The notes under the pieces are model-generated. The model searched no databases. It saw only the letters and a list, made by a program, of their open reading frames with translations, and was not told the DNA's origin. A stretch of 55,358 bases of DNA from Blastococcus sp. MG754426 (GTDB lineage Bacteria > Actinomycetota > Actinomycetes > Mycobacteriales > Geodermatophilaceae), in assembly GCF_021699055.1 (NCBI RefSeq), contig NZ_SSXC01000019.1:1-55358 (forward strand), given 5' to 3'. The position numbers were made by a program, and so were the translations under genes. This document shows positions 10,542-20,605 of the stretch, in pieces; positions within the stretch are counted from its first letter, which is position 1, and every line of letters begins with the position of its first letter.

Positions 10542-11138
10542 GTGAGCAGCGAGCCGATCCGGGTTCTGATCGCCGAGGACGAGGCACTGATCCGCCTCGA
10601 CCTCAAGGAGATGCTCGAGGAGGAGGGGTACCACGTCGTCGCCGAGGTCGGCGACGGCCAGCAGGCGGTGGAGCGCGCCGAGGAGCTCCGCCCCGACCTG
10701 GTCATCCTCGACATCCAGATGCCGGTGCTGGACGGCCTCTCCGCCGCCGAGCGGATCGCGTCGGCGCGGATCGCGCCGGTCATCGTGCTCACCGCCTTCA
10801 GCCAGCGGGAGCTGGTCGAGCGCGCCCGCGACGCCGGCGCGATGGCCTACCTGGTCAAGCCGTTCTCCAAGAACGACCTCGTCCCGGCCATCGAGGTCGC
10901 GCGGGGCCGGTTCGCCGAGATGACGGCGCTGGACGGGGAGGTCAAGGACCTCCAGGAGCGGCTGGAGACCCGCAAGGTCGTCGAGCGGGCGAAGGGCCGG
11001 CTGATGGCCGACCAGGGCATGACCGAGGCCGAGGCCTTCCGGTGGATCCAGCGGACGGCCATGAACCAGCGGACGAGCATGAAGGCGCTGGCGGAGTCGA
11101 TCCTGGCGGCGACGACGGCCGGCGACGGCACGGCCTGA
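10542..11138 (+). CDS. pdtaR: ANTAR-domain response regulator (PdtaR/Rv1626-like)
   Basis: 198-aa two-domain regulator. Residues 6-120 are a receiver domain with acidic residues EDE near the N-terminus, phospho-acceptor Asp57 (VILDIQM), Thr in VLTAF and Lys in LVKPF. A coiled linker leads to a C-terminal ANTAR RNA-binding domain (KGRLMADQGMTEAEAFRWIQ). In mycobacteria the ortholog is phosphorylated by the kinase PdtaS and acts by antitermination on nascent RNA. No kinase gene is adjacent here. The GTG start is supported by the -10 box just upstream and by family alignment. Confidence 0.93.
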   Translation: MSSEPIRVLIAEDEALIRLDLKEMLEEEGYHVVAEVGDGQQAVERAEELRPDLVILDIQMPVLDGLSAAERIASARIAPVIVLTAFSQRELVERARDAGAMAYLVKPFSKNDLVPAIEVARGRFAEMTALDGEVKDLQERLETRKVVERAKGRLMADQGMTEAEAFRWIQRTAMNQRTSMKALAESILAATTAGDGTA

Positions 11139-11373: not shown

Positions 11374-12720
11374 ATGCGCACTCGCACTACTGCCCGCAGC
11401 ATCGCCGTCACCGGTGCTGCCCTGCTGGCGCTGACCGCCTGCGGTGGCGGCGACGAGGGTGGCACGTCGGCCGAAGGTGGTGGCGACAGCGGCGGCGGCG
11501 GCGAACGGCAGGTCAACGTCTACGGCACCGACGGCAACATGGGGAACGCCCTGGGGGAGTCGTTCACCACCGAGGGCGCCCTCGCCGGGATGCGGGGCAC
11601 CACGCCGCTCACCGACCTCGGCGACGACTTCACCAACCGGCTGCTCGAGGTCGACCCGAACCTGCAGGACTTCAACTACGCCGGCGAGACCTACGACGCG
11701 ATCATGATCTCCGCGATCGCCGCGCAGCTGGCCGGCAGCACCGACCCGGCCGTCTTCGCGCCCTACATCAACGGCGTCACCTTCGGCGGCGACACCTGCA
11801 CCACCTTCGCCGAGTGCAAGGAGATCGTCGACGGGGGCGGCAACCCCGACTACGACGGCATCTCGGGGCCGCTGGCCTTCACCGAGCCGGGTGAGCCGGC
11901 GGTGGCGAGCTTCGGCATCCTGGAGTTCGGCCAGGACAACGCCATCGACTCCGAGGCCACCGAGTTCGTGCTCGCCGGCGACGAGGCCAACGCGGCCACC
12001 GACGAGGGGCCCGCCCCGGCTGCCCCGGGTGCCACGTCCGACGACCCGCTGGTGATCGGCACGCTGCTGCCGCTCACCGGTAACCTCGCCTTCCTCGGCC
12101 CCCCGGAGGTCGCCGGCGCCCGGCTGGCCGTCCAGGAGATCAACGAGACCGGCGGCGTGCTCGGTCAGCCGGTCCAGCTGGTCGAGGGTGACTCGGGCGA
12201 TGCCTCCACCGACACGGCCTCGCAGACGGTCAACCGGCTGCTGAACGAGAACGTGGACGTCATCGTCGGTGCCGCCTCCTCCGGCGTGAGCCTGACCGTC
12301 ATCGACGCGATCACCCGCGCCGGCGTCGTGCAGATCTCGCCGGCGAACACGTCCGACCAGTTCACCACCTACAACGACAACGGGCTCTACTTCCGGACGG
12401 CTCCGCCGGACACGCTGCAGGCTCGGGCGCTCTCGGACCTGATCATCAACGACGGCAACAACACCGTCGGGATCATGGCCCTGAACGACCCGTACGGCAC
12501 CGGTCTCATGGAGAACACCGTGGAGAACCTGGTCGCTGCGGGTCTGTCGGAGGACAGCATCGAGACGCTGACCTACGACCCGCAGGCGGCGAACTTCGAC
12601 TCCGAGATCCAGCAGATGGTGGAGTTCAACCCGGACGCCATCGTGGTCATCGGCTTCGAGGAGTCGGCCCGCATCATCGAGGGTCTGAACGCCGAGGGCA
12701 TCGGCCCGGCGCGCGACTGA
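11374..12720 (+). CDS. Circularly permuted branched-chain amino acid-type ABC substrate-binding lipoprotein
   Basis: 448-aa predicted lipoprotein. It has a basic N-terminus, a hydrophobic stretch and a lipobox LTAC (Cys23), followed by a Gly/Ser-rich spacer. It belongs to the LivJ-type family (type I periplasmic binding fold), but the order is permuted. Residues 45-190 (starting QVNVYGTDGNMGNALGE, ending ASFGILEFGQDN) are what normally forms the C-terminal part. Residues 191-224 are an Ala/Pro/Glu-rich linker. Residues 225-448 (starting DPLVIGTLLPLTGNLAFLG, including GAASSGVSLTVID and DPYGTG) are the normal N-terminal part, ending at AEGIGPARD exactly where the first segment begins in family members. 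Nothing is missing or duplicated and there is no frameshift. It faces the livHMGF operon tail to tail and presumably feeds it. Confidence 0.9.
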   Translation: MRTRTTARSIAVTGAALLALTACGGGDEGGTSAEGGGDSGGGGERQVNVYGTDGNMGNALGESFTTEGALAGMRGTTPLTDLGDDFTNRLLEVDPNLQDFNYAGETYDAIMISAIAAQLAGSTDPAVFAPYINGVTFGGDTCTTFAECKEIVDGGGNPDYDGISGPLAFTEPGEPAVASFGILEFGQDNAIDSEATEFVLAGDEANAATDEGPAPAAPGATSDDPLVIGTLLPLTGNLAFLGPPEVAGARLAVQEINETGGVLGQPVQLVEGDSGDASTDTASQTVNRLLNENVDVIVGAASSGVSLTVIDAITRAGVVQISPANTSDQFTTYNDNGLYFRTAPPDTLQARALSDLIINDGNNTVGIMALNDPYGTGLMENTVENLVAAGLSEDSIETLTYDPQAANFDSEIQQMVEFNPDAIVVIGFEESARIIEGLNAEGIGPARD

Positions 12721-12727
12721 CCCGGCC

Positions 12728-12786
12728 GGCGGATCGCTGATCCGCCGAGGCCACCAGGGGCCCGGCACCGCACGGTGCCGGGCCCC
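12728..12786 (+). terminator. Two hairpins after the binding-protein gene
   Basis: An 8-bp stem with a 3-nt loop (GGCGGATC/GATCCGCC, 12728-12746) is followed by a near-continuous 14-bp palindromic stem (12757-12786, arms starting GGGGCCCGGCAC). They begin 8 nt after the stop. Confidence 0.7.
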
Positions 12787-12862
12787 TGTGCGTCCGCAGC
12801 GGGCCCGCGCGGACGGCGCACCGCCACGGGGGCCGGGCCGGGCGCGGCCGCGGGACGCCGCA

Positions 12863-12922: not shown

Positions 12923-13837
12923 TCAGTGCGCCTTGGCGAGGGTCCCGAGGTAGAGCTCGATGACCTTGGGGTCGTGCATCAGCGACTCGCCGGTGGCCGT
13001 GTAGGCGTTCCGGCCCTGGTCGAGGACGTAGCCGCGGTCGCAGATCTGCAGGCACCGCCGGGCGTTCTGCTCGACCATGATGATCGAGACGCCGGTCGCG
13101 TTGATCCGCCGGCAGCGGATGAACACCTCGTCCTGGTAGGCGGGGGAGAGCCCGGCCGAGGGCTCGTCGAGGAGCAGCACCGACGGCTCCATCATCAGCG
13201 CGCGCCCCATCGCGACCATCTGGCGCTCACCGCCGGACAGCGAGCCCGCCTTGATCCTGCGGCGCTCCCCGAGCAGGGGGAACAGCTCCGCGACGTAGTC
13301 GAACCGCTGCTTGATCACCTTGGGGCGGAGGTAGGCGCCCATCTCCATGTTCTCCTCGATGGTGAGGGAGGGGAACACGTTGTTGTTCTGCGGCACGTAG
13401 CCCACGCCCAGGGACACCAGCCGGTGCGCGGGCGCGGAGGTGATGTCCTCGCCGCGCAGCGTCACCGAGCCGGACCGGACCGGGATGAGGCCGAAGAGTG
13501 CCTTGAGCAGGGTGGACTTGCCGGCGCCGTTGGGGCCGATGATCCCCACCAGCTCGCCGTCGTTCAGGTAGAAGTCGCACTCGTTGAGGATGTTGACGCC
13601 CGGGAGGTAGCCGGCGACCAGCTGGTCCGCGCGGATCAGCGCGTCTCCGGCCAGCCGGACGTGCTCCTCCCGGGTCGCCGCCCGCTCGGCGGGCGAGAGG
13701 TCGCCGGCCGCCTCGGCCCGGGTGGGGCCGCGCCCGGTGATCGCCGGGTCGTCTCCGTCACCGACCGGGCGGTCGAACTCGTACTCGGGGTCGGTGCTCT
13801 CGCGCGGATCCCTGCCCTGGCTCGGGTCGATGGTCAT
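12923..13837 (-). CDS. livF: Branched-chain amino acid ABC transporter ATP-binding protein LivF
   Basis: 304-aa cytoplasmic ATPase. It has Walker A GPNGAGKST, a Q-loop at VPQNNNVFP, signature LSGGERQ, Walker B VLLLDEPSAGL and a switch region VEQNARR, which is typical of LivF. The ATPase core starts only at about residue 67 (LIRADQLVAGY). The preceding 65 residues are acidic and polar (Asp, Pro, Glu, Arg rich) and absent from ordinary LivF. The ATG overlaps the livG stop by 4 bp, so it is the last gene of livH-livM-livG-livF. The extension might be partly untranslated if a downstream start is used, but no better start with a Shine-Dalgarno is evident. Confidence 0.93.
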   Translation of the reverse strand: MTIDPSQGRDPRESTDPEYEFDRPVGDGDDPAITGRGPTRAEAAGDLSPAERAATREEHVRLAGDALIRADQLVAGYLPGVNILNECDFYLNDGELVGIIGPNGAGKSTLLKALFGLIPVRSGSVTLRGEDITSAPAHRLVSLGVGYVPQNNNVFPSLTIEENMEMGAYLRPKVIKQRFDYVAELFPLLGERRRIKAGSLSGGERQMVAMGRALMMEPSVLLLDEPSAGLSPAYQDEVFIRCRRINATGVSIIMVEQNARRCLQICDRGYVLDQGRNAYTATGESLMHDPKVIELYLGTLAKAH

Positions 13838-14847
13838 CGGTCCGTCCTCTTCTTCTCCCCGCGACCGGGCCGCCCGACGTCATCGGTGCGCTCGTCGTCG
13901 GCGATGCTGGCCTCGGCCTCGGCGAGGACGCGGTCCTCTTCCTCCACGGTCAGCGGCGCGTCGTGGTGCGCGCCGAGGTAGGCGTCCACCACGGCACGGT
14001 TCTGGCTGATCGACTCGGGCGGGCCCTCGGCGATCACCTTGCCCGCCGCCATGACGACCACCCAGTCGCTGATGTCCCTGACGACGTCCATGTCGTGCTC
14101 GACGAAGACCACCGTCATCCCCTGCTCCCGCAGGTCCTTCACGTGCCCGAGCAGGCTCTGGGTCAGCGCCGGGTTCACGCCGGCCATCGGCTCGTCGAGC
14201 ATGACGACCTTCGGGTCGCTCATGAGTGCCCGTGCCATCTCGAGCAGCTTGCGCTGGCCGCCGGACAGCGTGCCCGCGAAGTCGTCCTTCTTGGCGTCGA
14301 GCTTGAACCGGCGCAGCAGCTCCATGGCCTTGTCGGTGTTGGCCTTCTCCTGCGACCGCCAGATCCCCGGCACGAGGGCGCGGAAGAAGCTCTCGCCCTT
14401 CTGCCCCTGGGCGCCGAGCAGCATGTTCTGCAGCACCGTGAGCCGGGACAGCGCCTTCGTCAGCTGGAAGGTGCGGACCACACCGAGCCGGGCGACCTGG
14501 TGCGGGGAGAGCTTCCCGAGCGGCCGGCCGTCGAACGACCAGGTGCCGCCGTCGGGCTGGTCGAACCCGGTGAGCAGGTTGAACAGCGTCGTCTTCCCGG
14601 CCCCGTTCGGGCCGATCAGGCCGGTGATGCCGCCACGCTGGATCTCCAGGTGGTCGACCGAGACGGCCGTCAGGCCGCCGAAGGTCCGGACCACGCCGTC
14701 GACCACGATGGCGGGCTCGGGCTTGGCGACCCCGACCTCCCAGGGCACGTCCCGGAGGGCGGCCTGGGCCAGCCGCTGCGGCGGGGCCCCCGCACCCGTC
14801 GCCGTCGACGCGGCGTGCGCCCCGGTGGGCGTCGGCTCAGCGGGCAT
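13834..14847 (-). CDS. livG: Branched-chain amino acid ABC transporter ATP-binding protein LivG
   Basis: 337-aa ATPase. Walker A is GPNGAGKTT, signature LSGGQRK, Walker B VVMLDEPMAGVNP and the switch His is in FVEHDMDVV. The LivG-specific helical insertion lies between the Q-loop and the signature. The core starts at about residue 46 (PAIVVDGVVRTFGGL), preceded by an Ala/Pro/Thr-rich stretch. A charged C-terminal tail of about 40 residues (Glu/Asp then Arg/Lys) is also longer than usual. The start overlaps the 3' end of livM by 11 bp and the stop overlaps livF, indicating translational coupling. Confidence 0.94.
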   Translation of the reverse strand: MPAEPTPTGAHAASTATGAGAPPQRLAQAALRDVPWEVGVAKPEPAIVVDGVVRTFGGLTAVSVDHLEIQRGGITGLIGPNGAGKTTLFNLLTGFDQPDGGTWSFDGRPLGKLSPHQVARLGVVRTFQLTKALSRLTVLQNMLLGAQGQKGESFFRALVPGIWRSQEKANTDKAMELLRRFKLDAKKDDFAGTLSGGQRKLLEMARALMSDPKVVMLDEPMAGVNPALTQSLLGHVKDLREQGMTVVFVEHDMDVVRDISDWVVVMAAGKVIAEGPPESISQNRAVVDAYLGAHHDAPLTVEEEDRVLAEAEASIADDERTDDVGRPGRGEKKRTDR

Positions 14848-15835
14848 CGAGCATCACCTCTCGTCGGTCACCGAAGATGCCCTGCGGGCGGAAGATCAGC
14901 AGCAGGATGAGCCCGAGCCCGATGAGCACGAACCGGATCTGCGCGACGTCGGTCGCGGACAGCAGGTCCTCCGGGATGACCCCGTTGCCGATCAGGGTAC
15001 GCAGACCGGTGTCCGCGAACTGGATGATGAAGTACAGCAGCATCGCGCCGATGACCGGCCCGAGCACCCGTGCGGCGCCGCCGAGGATCAGCGCTGCGTA
15101 GGCCAGGAACGTGTTGGCGTTCTGGTACTGGTCCGGCGTCGCCGACGCGGTGCCGACCGCGTAGACCATGCCACCCAGGGCGCCCAGGACACCGCCGAGC
15201 ACCAGGGCCTGCATCTTGTAGACGTAGACGTTCTTGCCGAGGGCGCGCACGGCGTCCTCGTCCTCGCGGATCGACTTCACCACCCGGCCCCACGGGCTGC
15301 GGACGAGCAGCCAGACGAGCAGGCAGGCGAGGGCCACGAGCACCCACCCGACGAGGGTGACCCACAGGTCCGCGCCGCTCCAGGTGGTGCCGAGGATCCT
15401 GAACCGCGCGGCCGGGTCCCACGGCGCGAGCGACACGAACGGGTCGCTGAACCCGGAGAGCCCCCGGGTGCCCGCGGTGACGGGCGTGGCGGAGACCGAC
15501 CGGAAGGTGAGCCGGAGCCCTTCCGCGGCGGCGATGGTGGCGATGGCGAGGTAGTCGGCGCGCAGGCGCAGCGTCGGGATGCCCAGCAGCAGGGCGAGCA
15601 CCACGGCGGCGGCGAGACCGATGAGCACGCCCACCCAGAACGGGAGGCCCCACTGGGACACCGAGATCGCGATCCCGTAGCCGCCGAGCAGGGCGAACGC
15701 GATCTGCCCGAAGTTCAGCAGCCCCGTGTAGCCGAACTGGATGTTCAGCCCGATGGCGAGCAGCGCGAAGAAGACGGCCTGGAAGCCGATCCCCGCCTTG
15801 AGTGCGACGGCGAGTGCGTCGAGGAGTTCAGCCAT
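14837..15835 (-). CDS. livM: Branched-chain amino acid ABC transporter permease LivM
   Basis: 332-aa inner membrane permease with about 8-9 hydrophobic segments. The family landmark LNIQFGYTGLLNFGQIAF is near the N-terminus, and the EAA-like cytoplasmic loop GRVVKSIREDEDAVRALGKN contacts the ATPases. It ends with LLLIFRPQGIFG, typical of LivM. The gene lies 3 bp after livH and overlaps livG. Confidence 0.95.
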   Translation of the reverse strand: MAELLDALAVALKAGIGFQAVFFALLAIGLNIQFGYTGLLNFGQIAFALLGGYGIAISVSQWGLPFWVGVLIGLAAAVVLALLLGIPTLRLRADYLAIATIAAAEGLRLTFRSVSATPVTAGTRGLSGFSDPFVSLAPWDPAARFRILGTTWSGADLWVTLVGWVLVALACLLVWLLVRSPWGRVVKSIREDEDAVRALGKNVYVYKMQALVLGGVLGALGGMVYAVGTASATPDQYQNANTFLAYAALILGGAARVLGPVIGAMLLYFIIQFADTGLRTLIGNGVIPEDLLSATDVAQIRFVLIGLGLILLLIFRPQGIFGDRREVMLDAR

Positions 15836-15838
15836 GGC

Positions 15839-17203
15839 TCAACCAATCCGGGCCCGGCTGCCGAGGATGCCCTGCGGCCGCACGATGAGGATGACGATGA
15901 GGAGGAGCAGACCCCCGACGTACTTCATGTCGTTGGGGATGACCAGCGTGGACATCTGCACGAAGACGCCGACCACGATGCTGCCGATGAGGGCGCCGTA
16001 CGCGGTCCCCAGGCCGCCGAGGGTCACGCCGGCGAACATCAGCAGGAGCAGCCGGAAGCCCATGTCCCACTGGACCTCGTCGGAGAGCCCGAGGAGCACG
16101 CCACCGAGCGCGGCGAGGGCGCCGCCGACCATCCAGACCACCAGGATGACGCGGTTCACGTTGATGCCGGAGGAGGCGGCGAGGTCGCGGTTGTCGGAGA
16201 CGGCCCGCATGGCCTTGCCGATCGTGGTCCGCTGCAGCATCACGGCCACGAGCACGAGCACGACCAGCGCGATGATCATGGACGTGAGGTCCTTGTTCGT
16301 CATCGAGAAGGGGCCGTAGTCGACCGTGCGCTGTCCGCGGTAGTCGGCGTAGGCGTTCGAGCGCCCGCCGTACACGATCTGGTACAGGTAGCGCAGCAGC
16401 AGCGACAGCCCGATGGAGATGACCAGCGCCGCCACCAGCCCGGTGCCGCGGCGGCGCAGCGGCCGCCACAGACCCAGTTCGTTGAGGGCGCCGATGCCGG
16501 CACCCACGAGCATCGCCAGCAGCGCGGAGACGATCAGGGGCACGCCCGCACCCACGTTGATGAACCAGGCGACGACGGCGCCGATGGTCACCAGCTCGCC
16601 GTGCGCGAAGTTGACCAGGCCGGTGGTGCCGAAGATCAGCGAGAGCCCGATGGCCGCCATGGCGATGAGGAGGCCGAACCGGAGGCCCGACACCAGGAGC
16701 TCGACCCAGCGGATCGTGCCGCCACCGGCGCCCCGGGTGCCGTCGTCGAGGCCGATGATGACGCCCTGGGTGCGGCCGGCGTCGACGGTGACCGTGCGGC
16801 TGTTGCCGGCGTTGAACTCCACCCCCTCGGGGAGCGCGTCCTCGGGGACGGTCACCGTGTACTCGCCCGGCCCCGGGAGGTCGACGGCGAAGCGGCCGTT
16901 CTCGTCGGTCTCGTCGGTGCCCACCTCGTCGCCGCCGGCGTCGGTGACGACGACCTCGACGTCCTCGAGGGGGCCGCTCAGGCTCGTCCGGAGGGTGCCG
17001 GTGACCTGCTCGGACGCCGCCTGCTCGGCCTGGGCCAAGCCCGGGGTCAGGGTGGCCAGGCCGGCGGTGAACAGCGCGACCAGCAGCAGGCGCAGGACGG
17101 TGACGCCTCTGCGGCGGGCTGCACCGGCCGGCGTCGGAGACCCTCGTCGAACGGGCCTGCTTCGTCGACCGTGCCGGCGGACACGGTCCGTCGGGTGCGT
17201 CAC
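15839..17203 (-). CDS. livH: Branched-chain amino acid ABC transporter permease LivH with N-terminal exported beta-domain
   Basis: 454 aa, about 150 longer than a normal LivH. Residues 1-33 are Arg-rich, and 36-59 form a hydrophobic signal ending in AQA, a likely signal peptidase site. Residues 64-152 look like a carboxypeptidase-regulatory/SpaA-like beta-sandwich (TDENGRFAVDLPGPGEYTVTVP). From about residue 165 the normal permease follows, with ISLIFGTTGLVNFAHGE-type landmarks (here LSLIFGTTGLVNFAHGELV), an EAA-like loop (GKAMRAVSDNRDLAASSGIN) and the end RPQGILG. First gene of the operon. The beta-domain should lie outside the membrane, near where the binding protein docks. Confidence 0.93.
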   Translation of the reverse strand: MTHPTDRVRRHGRRSRPVRRGSPTPAGAARRRGVTVLRLLLVALFTAGLATLTPGLAQAEQAASEQVTGTLRTSLSGPLEDVEVVVTDAGGDEVGTDETDENGRFAVDLPGPGEYTVTVPEDALPEGVEFNAGNSRTVTVDAGRTQGVIIGLDDGTRGAGGGTIRWVELLVSGLRFGLLIAMAAIGLSLIFGTTGLVNFAHGELVTIGAVVAWFINVGAGVPLIVSALLAMLVGAGIGALNELGLWRPLRRRGTGLVAALVISIGLSLLLRYLYQIVYGGRSNAYADYRGQRTVDYGPFSMTNKDLTSMIIALVVLVLVAVMLQRTTIGKAMRAVSDNRDLAASSGINVNRVILVVWMVGGALAALGGVLLGLSDEVQWDMGFRLLLLMFAGVTLGGLGTAYGALIGSIVVGVFVQMSTLVIPNDMKYVGGLLLLIVILIVRPQGILGSRARIG

Positions 17204-17854: not shown

Positions 17855-20605
17855 ATGTCCGCTCCGGTCTCCACCCCCGCGCCCGCCGTCCCCACGACGA
17901 CGGCTCACCCGCCCGCCCAGCGCCCGAGGCTGCTGCTCCTGGACGGGCACTCGCTGGCCTACCGCGCGTTCTTCGCGCTGCCGGTGGAGAACTTCTCGAC
18001 CACGACGGGCCAGCCGACGAACGCCGTCTACGGCTTCACGTCGATGCTGATCAACATCCTGCGGGACGAGCAGCCCACCCACCTCGCCGTCGCCTTCGAC
18101 GTCGGCCGCAAGACCTTCCGCAGCGAGATCTACGCGGAGTACAAGGCCAACCGCGCCGAGAGCCCGACGGACTTCCGCGGGCAGGTGAGCCTGGTCCAGG
18201 AGGTCCTGGGCGCGCTGCGCGTCCCGGTGATCACCGCCGAGGGCTACGAGGCCGACGACGTGATCGCCACGCTCACCGTGCAGGCCGTCGAGCAGGGCAT
18301 GGACGTGCTGATCGCCACCGGCGACCGCGACGCCCTGCAGCTGGTCAACGAGCACGTCACCGTCCTCTACCCGCGCAAGGGCGTCTCGGACATGACGCGC
18401 TTCACGCCGCAGGAGGTCGAGGCCAAGTACGGCCTGTCCCCGGCGCAGTACCCCGATTTCGCTGCCCTCCGGGGGGACCCGAGCGACAACCTGCCCAGCA
18501 TCCCCAGCGTGGGGGAGAAGACCGCCGCGAAGTGGGTGCGCGAGTACGGCTCGCTGGACGCGCTGGTCGACCAGGTCGACACGGTGAAGGGCAAGGTCGG
18601 GGAGAAGCTGCGCGAGCACCTCTCCTCGGTACTGCAGAACCGGCGGCTCACCGAGCTCGACCGGCAGGTGCCGCTGGAGGTGGCGCCGGTGGACCTCGCC
18701 GTCCAGCCGTGGGACCGCAACGAGGTGCACACCCTCTTCGACAACCTGCAGTTCCGCGTCCTGCGCGACCGGCTGTTCGCGACGTTGTCCAGCGCGGAGC
18801 CGGAGGTGGACGGCGGCTTCGAGGTCACCGTCGACGAGGTGGCCGCCGGCGGGCTGGGAGCCTGGCTGGACGCGCACGCCCGCACCGGCCGCACCGGCGT
18901 GATCTTCCGCGGGAGCTGGGGCCGCGGCACCGGCGAGCTCACCGGCCTGGCGCTCGCCGCGGCCGACGACCACACCACCTTCGTCGACCTCGGCCCGGCG
19001 CTCGACGTCGCGGACGAGCAGGCGCTGGCCGCCTGGCTGGCCGACGCCGACCGCCCGAAGGTGGTGCACGAGGTCAAGGGCCCGCTGCTGGCCATCTGGG
19101 CGCGCGGCTGGGAGCTCGCCGGGGTCGTCAGCGACACCGCGCTGGCCGCCTACCTCGCCCTGCCTGGTCAGCGCTCCTTCGACCTCGGCGACCTGGCGGT
19201 CCGCTACCTGCGCCGCGAGCTGAAGGACGCCGCCGAGGAGGAGGCCCAGCTCACCCTGGACGGCCTCGGCCCGTCGGAGGCCGACGTCGCCGCCGAGGCG
19301 GCCAAGGCCGACGTGCTCAAGGCGGTGGCGGTCAACGACCTGTCCGACGCCCTCGAGCAGGTGCTCGGGCAGCGCGGTGGCGGGCACCTGCTCGGCGAGA
19401 TCGAGCTGCCGCTGACCTTCGTGCTCGGCCGGATGGAGCACCGGGGCATCGCCGCCGACCTCGAGTTCCTGCACGAGCTGCAGCGCGAGTTCGCCGAGGG
19501 CGTCGCCGCGGCGGCGGCCGAGTGCTACGCCGTCATCGGCCGCGAGGTGAACCTGGGCTCGCCCAAGCAGCTGCAGATCGTGCTGTTCGACGAACTCGGG
19601 CTGCCGAAGACCAAGAAGAACAAGACCGGCTACACCACCGACGCCGAGGCGCTGACCAACCTGCTCGCGCAGACCGGCCACCCGTTCCTCGAGCACCTGA
19701 TGCGCCACCGCGACGTCACCCGGCTGCGCACGGTCATCGACGGGCTGATCCCCATGGTCGACGACGCCGGCCGCATCCACACCACCTTCCAGCAGACGAT
19801 CGCGGCGACCGGCCGGCTCTCCTCGACCGACCCGAACCTGCAGAACATCCCCATCCGCACCGCCGAGGGGCGGCGGATCCGCCAGGCGTTCGTCGTCGGC
19901 CAGGGCTACGAGTCGCTGATGACGGCCGACTACAGCCAGATCGAGATGCGGATCATGGCGCACCTGTCCGGCGACGCGGGCCTCATCGAGGCGTTCACGT
20001 CGGGGGAGGACCTGCACTCCTTCGTCGCGTCCCGGGCCTTCGACATCCCGATCGAGGAGGTCGACCCGGAGATGCGCCGCCGGATCAAGGCGATGAGCTA
20101 CGGGCTGGCCTACGGGCTCTCCGCCTACGGGTTGTCCCAGCAGCTGCGCATCTCCACCGAGGAGGCGCGGGCGCAGATGCACGCCTACTTCGAGCGCTTC
20201 GGCGGGATCCGCGACTACCTCGACGGGGTCGTCGACGAGGCGCGGCAGACCGGTTTCACCGAGACCACCCTGGGCCGCCGCCGCTACCTGCCCGACCTGA
20301 CCAGCGACAACGGGCAGCGGCGGCAGATGGCCGAGCGCATGGCGCTCAACGCCCCGATCCAGGGCTCCGCCGCCGACGTCATCAAGGTGGCGATGCTCAA
20401 CGTCGAGAAGGCGATCGCGGCCGAGGGGCTGTCGTCCCGGATGCTCCTGCAGGTCCACGACGAGCTCGTGCTCGAGGTGGCGCCGGGGGAGAAGGAGGCC
20501 CTGGAGGCCCTGGTCCGCCGGGAGATGGCCGGCGCCGCGCAGCTCTCGGTGCCGCTGGAGGTCTCCGTCGGCGTCGGCTCGAGCTGGGACGCCGCGGCGC
20601 ACTGA
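17855..20605 (+). CDS. polA: DNA polymerase I
   Basis: 916 aa, used in repair and Okazaki fragment processing. The N-terminal 5'-3' exonuclease domain starts LLLLDGHSLAYRAFFALP, with acidic metal sites in EGYEADDVIATL and GDRDALQLV and the helix-hairpin-helix region GDPSDNLPSIPSVGEKTA. The middle domain (about 325-510) keeps the 3'-5' exonuclease fold but reads TGVIFRGSW where the catalytic Asp-x-Glu should be, so proofreading is probably absent, as in mycobacterial PolA. The polymerase domain has motif A DYSQIEMRIMAHLSGD, O-helix RRRIKAMSYGLAYGLSAYG and motif C QVHDELVLE. ATG at 17855 is preferred because it gives the standard N-terminus. Confidence 0.96.
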   Translation: MSAPVSTPAPAVPTTTAHPPAQRPRLLLLDGHSLAYRAFFALPVENFSTTTGQPTNAVYGFTSMLINILRDEQPTHLAVAFDVGRKTFRSEIYAEYKANRAESPTDFRGQVSLVQEVLGALRVPVITAEGYEADDVIATLTVQAVEQGMDVLIATGDRDALQLVNEHVTVLYPRKGVSDMTRFTPQEVEAKYGLSPAQYPDFAALRGDPSDNLPSIPSVGEKTAAKWVREYGSLDALVDQVDTVKGKVGEKLREHLSSVLQNRRLTELDRQVPLEVAPVDLAVQPWDRNEVHTLFDNLQFRVLRDRLFATLSSAEPEVDGGFEVTVDEVAAGGLGAWLDAHARTGRTGVIFRGSWGRGTGELTGLALAAADDHTTFVDLGPALDVADEQALAAWLADADRPKVVHEVKGPLLAIWARGWELAGVVSDTALAAYLALPGQRSFDLGDLAVRYLRRELKDAAEEEAQLTLDGLGPSEADVAAEAAKADVLKAVAVNDLSDALEQVLGQRGGGHLLGEIELPLTFVLGRMEHRGIAADLEFLHELQREFAEGVAAAAAECYAVIGREVNLGSPKQLQIVLFDELGLPKTKKNKTGYTTDAEALTNLLAQTGHPFLEHLMRHRDVTRLRTVIDGLIPMVDDAGRIHTTFQQTIAATGRLSSTDPNLQNIPIRTAEGRRIRQAFVVGQGYESLMTADYSQIEMRIMAHLSGDAGLIEAFTSGEDLHSFVASRAFDIPIEEVDPEMRRRIKAMSYGLAYGLSAYGLSQQLRISTEEARAQMHAYFERFGGIRDYLDGVVDEARQTGFTETTLGRRRYLPDLTSDNGQRRQMAERMALNAPIQGSAADVIKVAMLNVEKAIAAEGLSSRMLLQVHDELVLEVAPGEKEALEALVRREMAGAAQLSVPLEVSVGVGSSWDAAAH

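Follow-up and report, generated by a model that had tools for sequence, protein, structure and literature searches.

The closest described counterparts of the protein analysed here are LivJ and LivK of E. coli, which belong to the same family by profile (Peripla_BP_6, PF13458), with livFGMH genes adjoining. In the available text on LivJ (PMC13103812), domain-1 comprises residues 121-248 and 329-344, the normal mature N-terminus lies in domain-2, and S79 and T102 hold the ligand carboxylate while E226 holds its ammonium. A natural permutation is already on record for TpMglB-2 (Tp0684) from Treponema pallidum, another type I binding protein with a lipid tether. As far as its accessible description goes (PMC4990184), this protein belongs to a glucose-binding family, carries the first three strands of the N-lobe at its C-terminus instead and was assigned to a proposed class of its own (Type Ic or Cluster Bc); the same order occurs in treponemes and in Gram-positive relatives of that family, and a link with tethering has already been suggested. 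Among other proteins, saposin/swaposin and DNA methyltransferases are examples for which duplication, fusion and loss of the outer parts are the proposed route in the accessible part of PMC3320104.

The window, i.e., the whole 55,358-nucleotide stretch of Blastococcus sp. MG754426 DNA analysed here, contains a LivJ-type lipoprotein gene in which the two parts of the fold appear in reversed order. Relative to LivJ and LivK, as described in the available text, the protein differs in this order, in its lipid anchor and in its new chain ends, which correspond to LivJ 218/219 in the other lobe. It is also distinct from Type Ic/Cluster Bc as far as that class is described in print, since it is a Peripla_BP_6 protein cut at LivJ 218/219, in the other lobe. 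Compared with what the accessible text states for saposin/swaposin and the DNA methyltransferases, no intermediate was found here, and a signal peptide and lipobox have been kept ahead of the new start. The initial annotation, which proposed the permutation, knew of no such case in this transporter class. This stands insofar as no permuted LivJ-type binding protein was found in the open-licence literature; TpMglB-2 is the one naturally permuted binding protein found there, so permutation of a type I lipoprotein as such is already in print, at least in the part of PMC4990184 that is accessible.

Gene layout and neighbourhood

The layout of the gene and its neighbours is given in Table 1. The regulator upstream, for which we assume the name pdtaR, is the upstream neighbour at permuted and normal-order loci alike, as judged by synteny. 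Beyond livH lies polA (17855-20605, forward strand; start set from its first residues), and in several further families of actinobacteria the regulator, liv genes and polA likewise adjoin one another. Positions 12721-12800, where the binding-protein gene and livF converge, can form two strong GC-rich hairpins (-61 kcal/mol, z -5.2), which probably serve as a terminator common to both genes.

Table 1. Features of the permuted binding-protein gene and the adjacent genes in the window
Feature	Position	Strand	Basis
pdtaR-like response regulator with ANTAR domain	10542..11138	+	Pfam Response_reg and ANTAR; synteny
Permuted LivJ/Peripla_BP_6-type lipoprotein gene, 448 aa	11374..12720	+	Translation, profile order
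Signal peptide and lipobox LTAC, Cys23	11374..11442	+	Translation; lipobox judged by eye
Gly/Ser-rich spacer, residues 24-44	11443..11505	+	Translation
Segment A, residues 45-190, family C-terminal part moved to the front	11506..11943	+	Profile 217-370 of 375
Linker, residues 191-224, old C-terminus to old mature N-terminus	11944..12045	+	Translation, linker comparison
Segment B, residues 225-448, family N-terminal part moved to the end	12046..12717	+	Peripla_BP_6 2-211/343; profile 1-220/375
livF-type ATPase, convergent with binding-protein gene	12923..13837	-	Pfam ABC_tran; synteny
livG-type ATPase	13834..14847	-	Pfam ABC_tran and BCA_ABC_TP_C
livM-type permease	14837..15835	-	Pfam BPD_transp_2
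livH-type permease, extra N-terminal CarboxypepD_reg-like domain	15839..17203	-	Pfam BPD_transp_2 170-438, CarboxypepD_reg 66-150

Exchanged order of the two fold parts

A Pfam search aligned residues 226-439 of the window protein with positions 2-211 of the 343 in Peripla_BP_6 (E 3.7e-35); the score of 122.6 bits, against a curated cut-off of 31.7, bears out the assignment to the LivJ-type family. Segment A searched alone matched only the last part of ANF_receptor (positions 233-350 of 353) and only weakly (E 0.041), under the curated cut-off. A family-specific profile of 375 positions, built from 18 normal-order relatives, matched along the window protein in the order 217-370 (196 bits) and then 1-220 (366 bits). 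Thus, when the segments are searched separately, B is recovered by Pfam, whereas A stays below the Pfam cut-off and is clear on the 18-relative profile; residues 45-190 match the end of the family and 225-448 its start, as had been claimed.

Exchanging the segments (B+A) produced a single match to Peripla_BP_6, spanning positions 2-313 of 343 (E 7.6e-38), and one to ANF_receptor spanning 6-350 of 353 (E 2.1e-21). The normal-order coverage of Peripla_BP_6, which the native chain lacks, is therefore reached once the segments are exchanged. The gain in score is modest (from 122.6 to 131.5 bits) because the Pfam profile is weak at the C-terminal end of this family. B+A gives one nearly full-length match, nothing large is missing or doubled, and the exchange of the two fold parts has cost the protein no large piece; that the segment ends join directly in family order agrees with the profile coordinates and with the normal-order relatives, which mostly occupy the same locus. 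Two other Peripla_BP_6 proteins in the same genome have the normal order (profile 2-342 and 1-339). At the level of sequence profiles, the window protein is confirmed as a natural circular permutation of a Peripla_BP_6/LivJ-type lipoprotein.

Distribution and change in place

The same order was sought in related genomes and is present in many independent ones. Among 35 same-family relatives, 27 matched the permuted query collinearly over nearly its full length, and the other 8 gave no match or only weak ones. In an order-wide sample of 397 genomes, 180 matched with an E value of at most 1e-30; among the matches listed, the collinear permuted form occurred in 67 genomes of the window's family, Geodermatophilaceae (f1), in another 67 belonging to a second family (f16) and in a single f13 genome, and at least 8 Geodermatophilaceae genomes in this sample had no match. 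From 108 named loci, 80 were kept. Of these, 54 are permuted (L032-L085), including those of Blastococcus, Modestobacter, Geodermatophilus and Klenkia, and 26 have the normal order (L086-L111), including those of Mycolicibacterium, Pseudonocardia, Gordonia, Hoyosella and Microbispora; for the latter, identity in segment B is 57-65%. The permuted order is kept in most sampled Geodermatophilaceae, and it is a family-wide trait and not a unique one.

The regulator upstream together with a convergent livF downstream was found at 49 of the 54 permuted loci (three of the exceptions have short flanks) and at 20 of the 26 normal-order loci. In 36 chosen loci, permuted and normal-order genes alike are accompanied by livF, livG, livM and livH in this sequence, in many cases with polA next. 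Because permuted and normal genes lie mostly between the same regulator and livF, the normal-order gene occupying this locus in other Actinomycetota, it can be concluded that the gene was permuted in place, and the shared flanking order means that only the inside of the gene differs. Departures from this arrangement were also observed. On four f16 stretches (L254-L256, L258), the permuted gene stands without liv neighbours and is strongly diverged (branch length 1.24); a separate role is possible for it. Genome G355 also keeps a normal-order copy, located at the liv locus (L257), and the permuted gene in such a case is an extra copy, acquired via transfer or an old duplication. Within Blastococcus, segment B of the window protein is 97-98% identical to that of L004/L005, while segment A is only 77-78% identical to the same loci and is nearest to L013 (88%), whose segment B is only 76% identical. 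These differing histories of the two halves suggest recombination between them.

Two cut sites and the number of origins

After removal of duplicates by their last 60 residues, 92 distinct permuted ORFs fall into two types. In type I (78 of 92; 70 from f1 and f13, 8 from f16), the first segment starts at profile positions 214-222 and the second ends at 217-221. In type II (14 of 92), the start lies at 231-240 and the end at 240-242, i.e., about 20 residues further on, so that the proteins begin near LEGMKGT and end near VYGTDGNMGNALGENFDAGE. Type II proteins belong to other parts of Actinomycetota: they come from an Acidimicrobiales MAG (L085), from 11 of 296 genomes of G706's class and from 2 of 66 of G496's class. 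In L085, the frame is apparently shifted late in segment A, which appears to reflect an assembly error or a decaying gene. Another type II protein, L195 (G985; stretch L260), is very diverged (branch 2.08), and the stretch fetched for it has no liv genes. In LivJ numbering, type I proteins are cut at 218/219 and type II proteins at about 237-239; the stretch between these sites presumably consists of one strand and one helix.

A tree was calculated from 92 rows (30 permuted, 62 normal-order) thinned at 80% identity, with the cut-site columns removed and L002, L153 and L231 left out of the main alignment; the group names were given once the tree had been inspected. It needs four changes among three states, the same number as was required by quick-method trees calculated for each segment on its own after L195 and L144 had been omitted. 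The type II row L156 is sister to normal-order L199 (support 99/93), the remaining nine type II rows form one clade (98/93), and the clade with the type I rows also holds nine normal-order rows (100/99). The approximately unbiased (AU) test rejected a single clade of all permuted rows (p 3.9e-6) and of all type II rows (p 0.0035), rejected types I and II without L156 marginally (p 0.0415) and did not reject type I (p 0.497). When LivJ and LivK are used to root the tree, its deepest branches have the normal order, the outgroup branches themselves being very long. If normal order is the starting state, the simplest account requires three or more gains; the permutation thus probably arose at least three times in the subfamily, with the third origin resting on one lineage of two genomes (L156, L157), and type I may have one or two origins. 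L156 was considered as a chimera and rejected as such, for both of its segments are nearest to normal-order relatives (its sister L157 aside).

Ligand site and tether

The positions of LivJ S79, T102, Y150, Y202 and E226 are occupied by S, T, Y, F and D, respectively, in 92 of 92 permuted ORFs, so that S79 and T102 are kept while Y202 is read as Phe and E226 as Asp. The same is largely true of the normal-order relatives, with F at the Y202 position in 93 of 93 and D at the E226 position in 91 of 93. The residue at the A100 position is not fixed, Ala being present in 83 of the 92 permuted ORFs. In the window protein, the contact positions are Asp53 (LivJ Glu226) in segment A and Ser303, Thr326, Tyr374 and Phe428 in segment B; the Asp53 assignment follows the GPEG/GTDG motif and the alignment to 3ipc, while one LivJ alignment places Gly54, not Asp53, opposite Glu226. 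As the LivJ ligand contacts are split over both segments, the site would use both ends of the chain. Simple counting against eight relatives gave dN/dS values of 0.27-0.84 in A and 0.03-0.30 in B, all below 1. The protein would be the amino-acid receptor for the adjacent LivFGMH.

Both cuts lie in lobe 2 of LivJ (about 219-239), which is domain-1 in the available text of PMC13103812. The lipid tether should consequently move from lobe 1 to lobe 2, and, as mapped onto LivJ, the anchor would hold lobe 2 instead of lobe 1. This is in line with the earlier proposal that the tether attaches in the other half of the protein and that the new ends lie mid-fold. The CarboxypepD_reg-like domain of LivH (residues 66-150) precedes the membrane part. 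It was present at all 85 loci at which the frame reaches far enough upstream (86 loci have a LivH match); being common to permuted and normal loci, it was rejected as a special partner of the permutation. A broader scenario, in which lobe 2 was re-cut at least three times through selection for re-tethering that alters docking to LivH with its extra N-terminal domain, is offered only tentatively.

Proposed explanation and its alternatives

With good confidence, the gene can be regarded as encoding the tethered amino-acid-binding protein of the adjacent LivFGMH importer, its fold circularly permuted in place. The chain is predicted to fold into the usual two-lobed clamp, in which the ligand ammonium would be held by Asp53 of the first segment and the carboxylate by Ser303 and Thr326 of the second, and the new ends in lobe 2 would place the anchor there and not on lobe 1. 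The most likely route appears to be a tandem duplication with fusion of the copies: the first would have retained the signal peptide and C-terminal part, the second the spacer and N-terminal part, and the rest would have been lost; at least three such changes would have occurred in the subfamily, at two cut sites flanking one stretch of about 20 residues. The median spacer from the Cys to the fold is 17 residues in f1/f13, 10.5 in f16 and 15 in type II, compared with 42 in normal order, and the linker, counted from profile position 360 to 1, has 34-53 residues. The linker beside segment B was compared with 18 Mycobacteriales-type spacers using 200 shuffles. In f1/f13 (15 of 70 sequences tested), none of the 200 shuffles reached the score, whereas 31 of 200 did in f16 and 128 of 200 in type II, so that no likeness was shown there. 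The claim that the linker connects the former C-terminal tail with the former N-terminal spacer is thus supported for the window's group and not for the other two. For the window's lineage, this likeness agrees with duplication and fusion but does not prove it. A six-frame scan of 10.4-18.5 kb for remnants of a duplicated copy recovered the two segments already described and a single match at chance level, and no ORF with three profile stretches was found. The duplication route put forward in the initial annotation is therefore plausible, whereas its intermediate was not found.

Fission of the gene in two and re-fusion of the halves in the other order would explain the product without tandem duplication; it is one of the two standard models in the accessible part of PMC3320104, and it gains from the missing duplicated intermediate. 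Yet no split genes came to notice at the examined loci, the linker of the window's group resembles the normal N-terminal spacer, and the signal peptides are alike by eye, which makes this a rather doubtful alternative to duplication and fusion. It is also conceivable that a single ancient permutation was followed by a slight shift of the cut site and a return to normal order in some lineages. The cut sites are, after all, only about 20 residues apart, a type I clade is not rejected, and types I and II without L156 are rejected only marginally. However, the one-clade tests for all permuted rows and for all type II rows, the normal-order deepest branches (read with the long outgroup branches in mind) and the further rearrangements that reversion demands render this history unlikely.

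Two further explanations concern the gene itself. The permuted protein might have left the importer and taken another role, for example as a receptor. Such a change would suit the four f16 stretches without liv neighbours, as well as three g71 genomes that have normal-order matches too, with the G355 copy at the liv locus. Nonetheless, it is quite improbable given that the permuted gene lies at the liv locus in Geodermatophilaceae, that the next best match to the query in the window's genome is only 28% identical and that the ligand positions are unchanged. Collapse of two tandem normal-order genes into one during assembly could be imagined because the window's genome is a draft of 224 contigs. 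The permuted order is kept across many independent assemblies, some of them single-contig (G021, G008, G017), so misassembly, which the initial annotation had named as a possible refutation, has a negligible chance of being the explanation.

Significance

Profile annotation catches only part of such a protein, as Pfam reports the second part of the window protein alone above the cut-off. Permuted and normal-order proteins form natural pairs that are about 60% identical and mostly share the same locus, with the same transporter genes beside them, and the change seems recurrent at two nearby sites. Such pairs allow the effects of tether position and export order on folding, docking and transport to be tested. 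They also make it possible to test directly whether permutation is an adaptation to tethering, as has been suggested for TpMglB-2.
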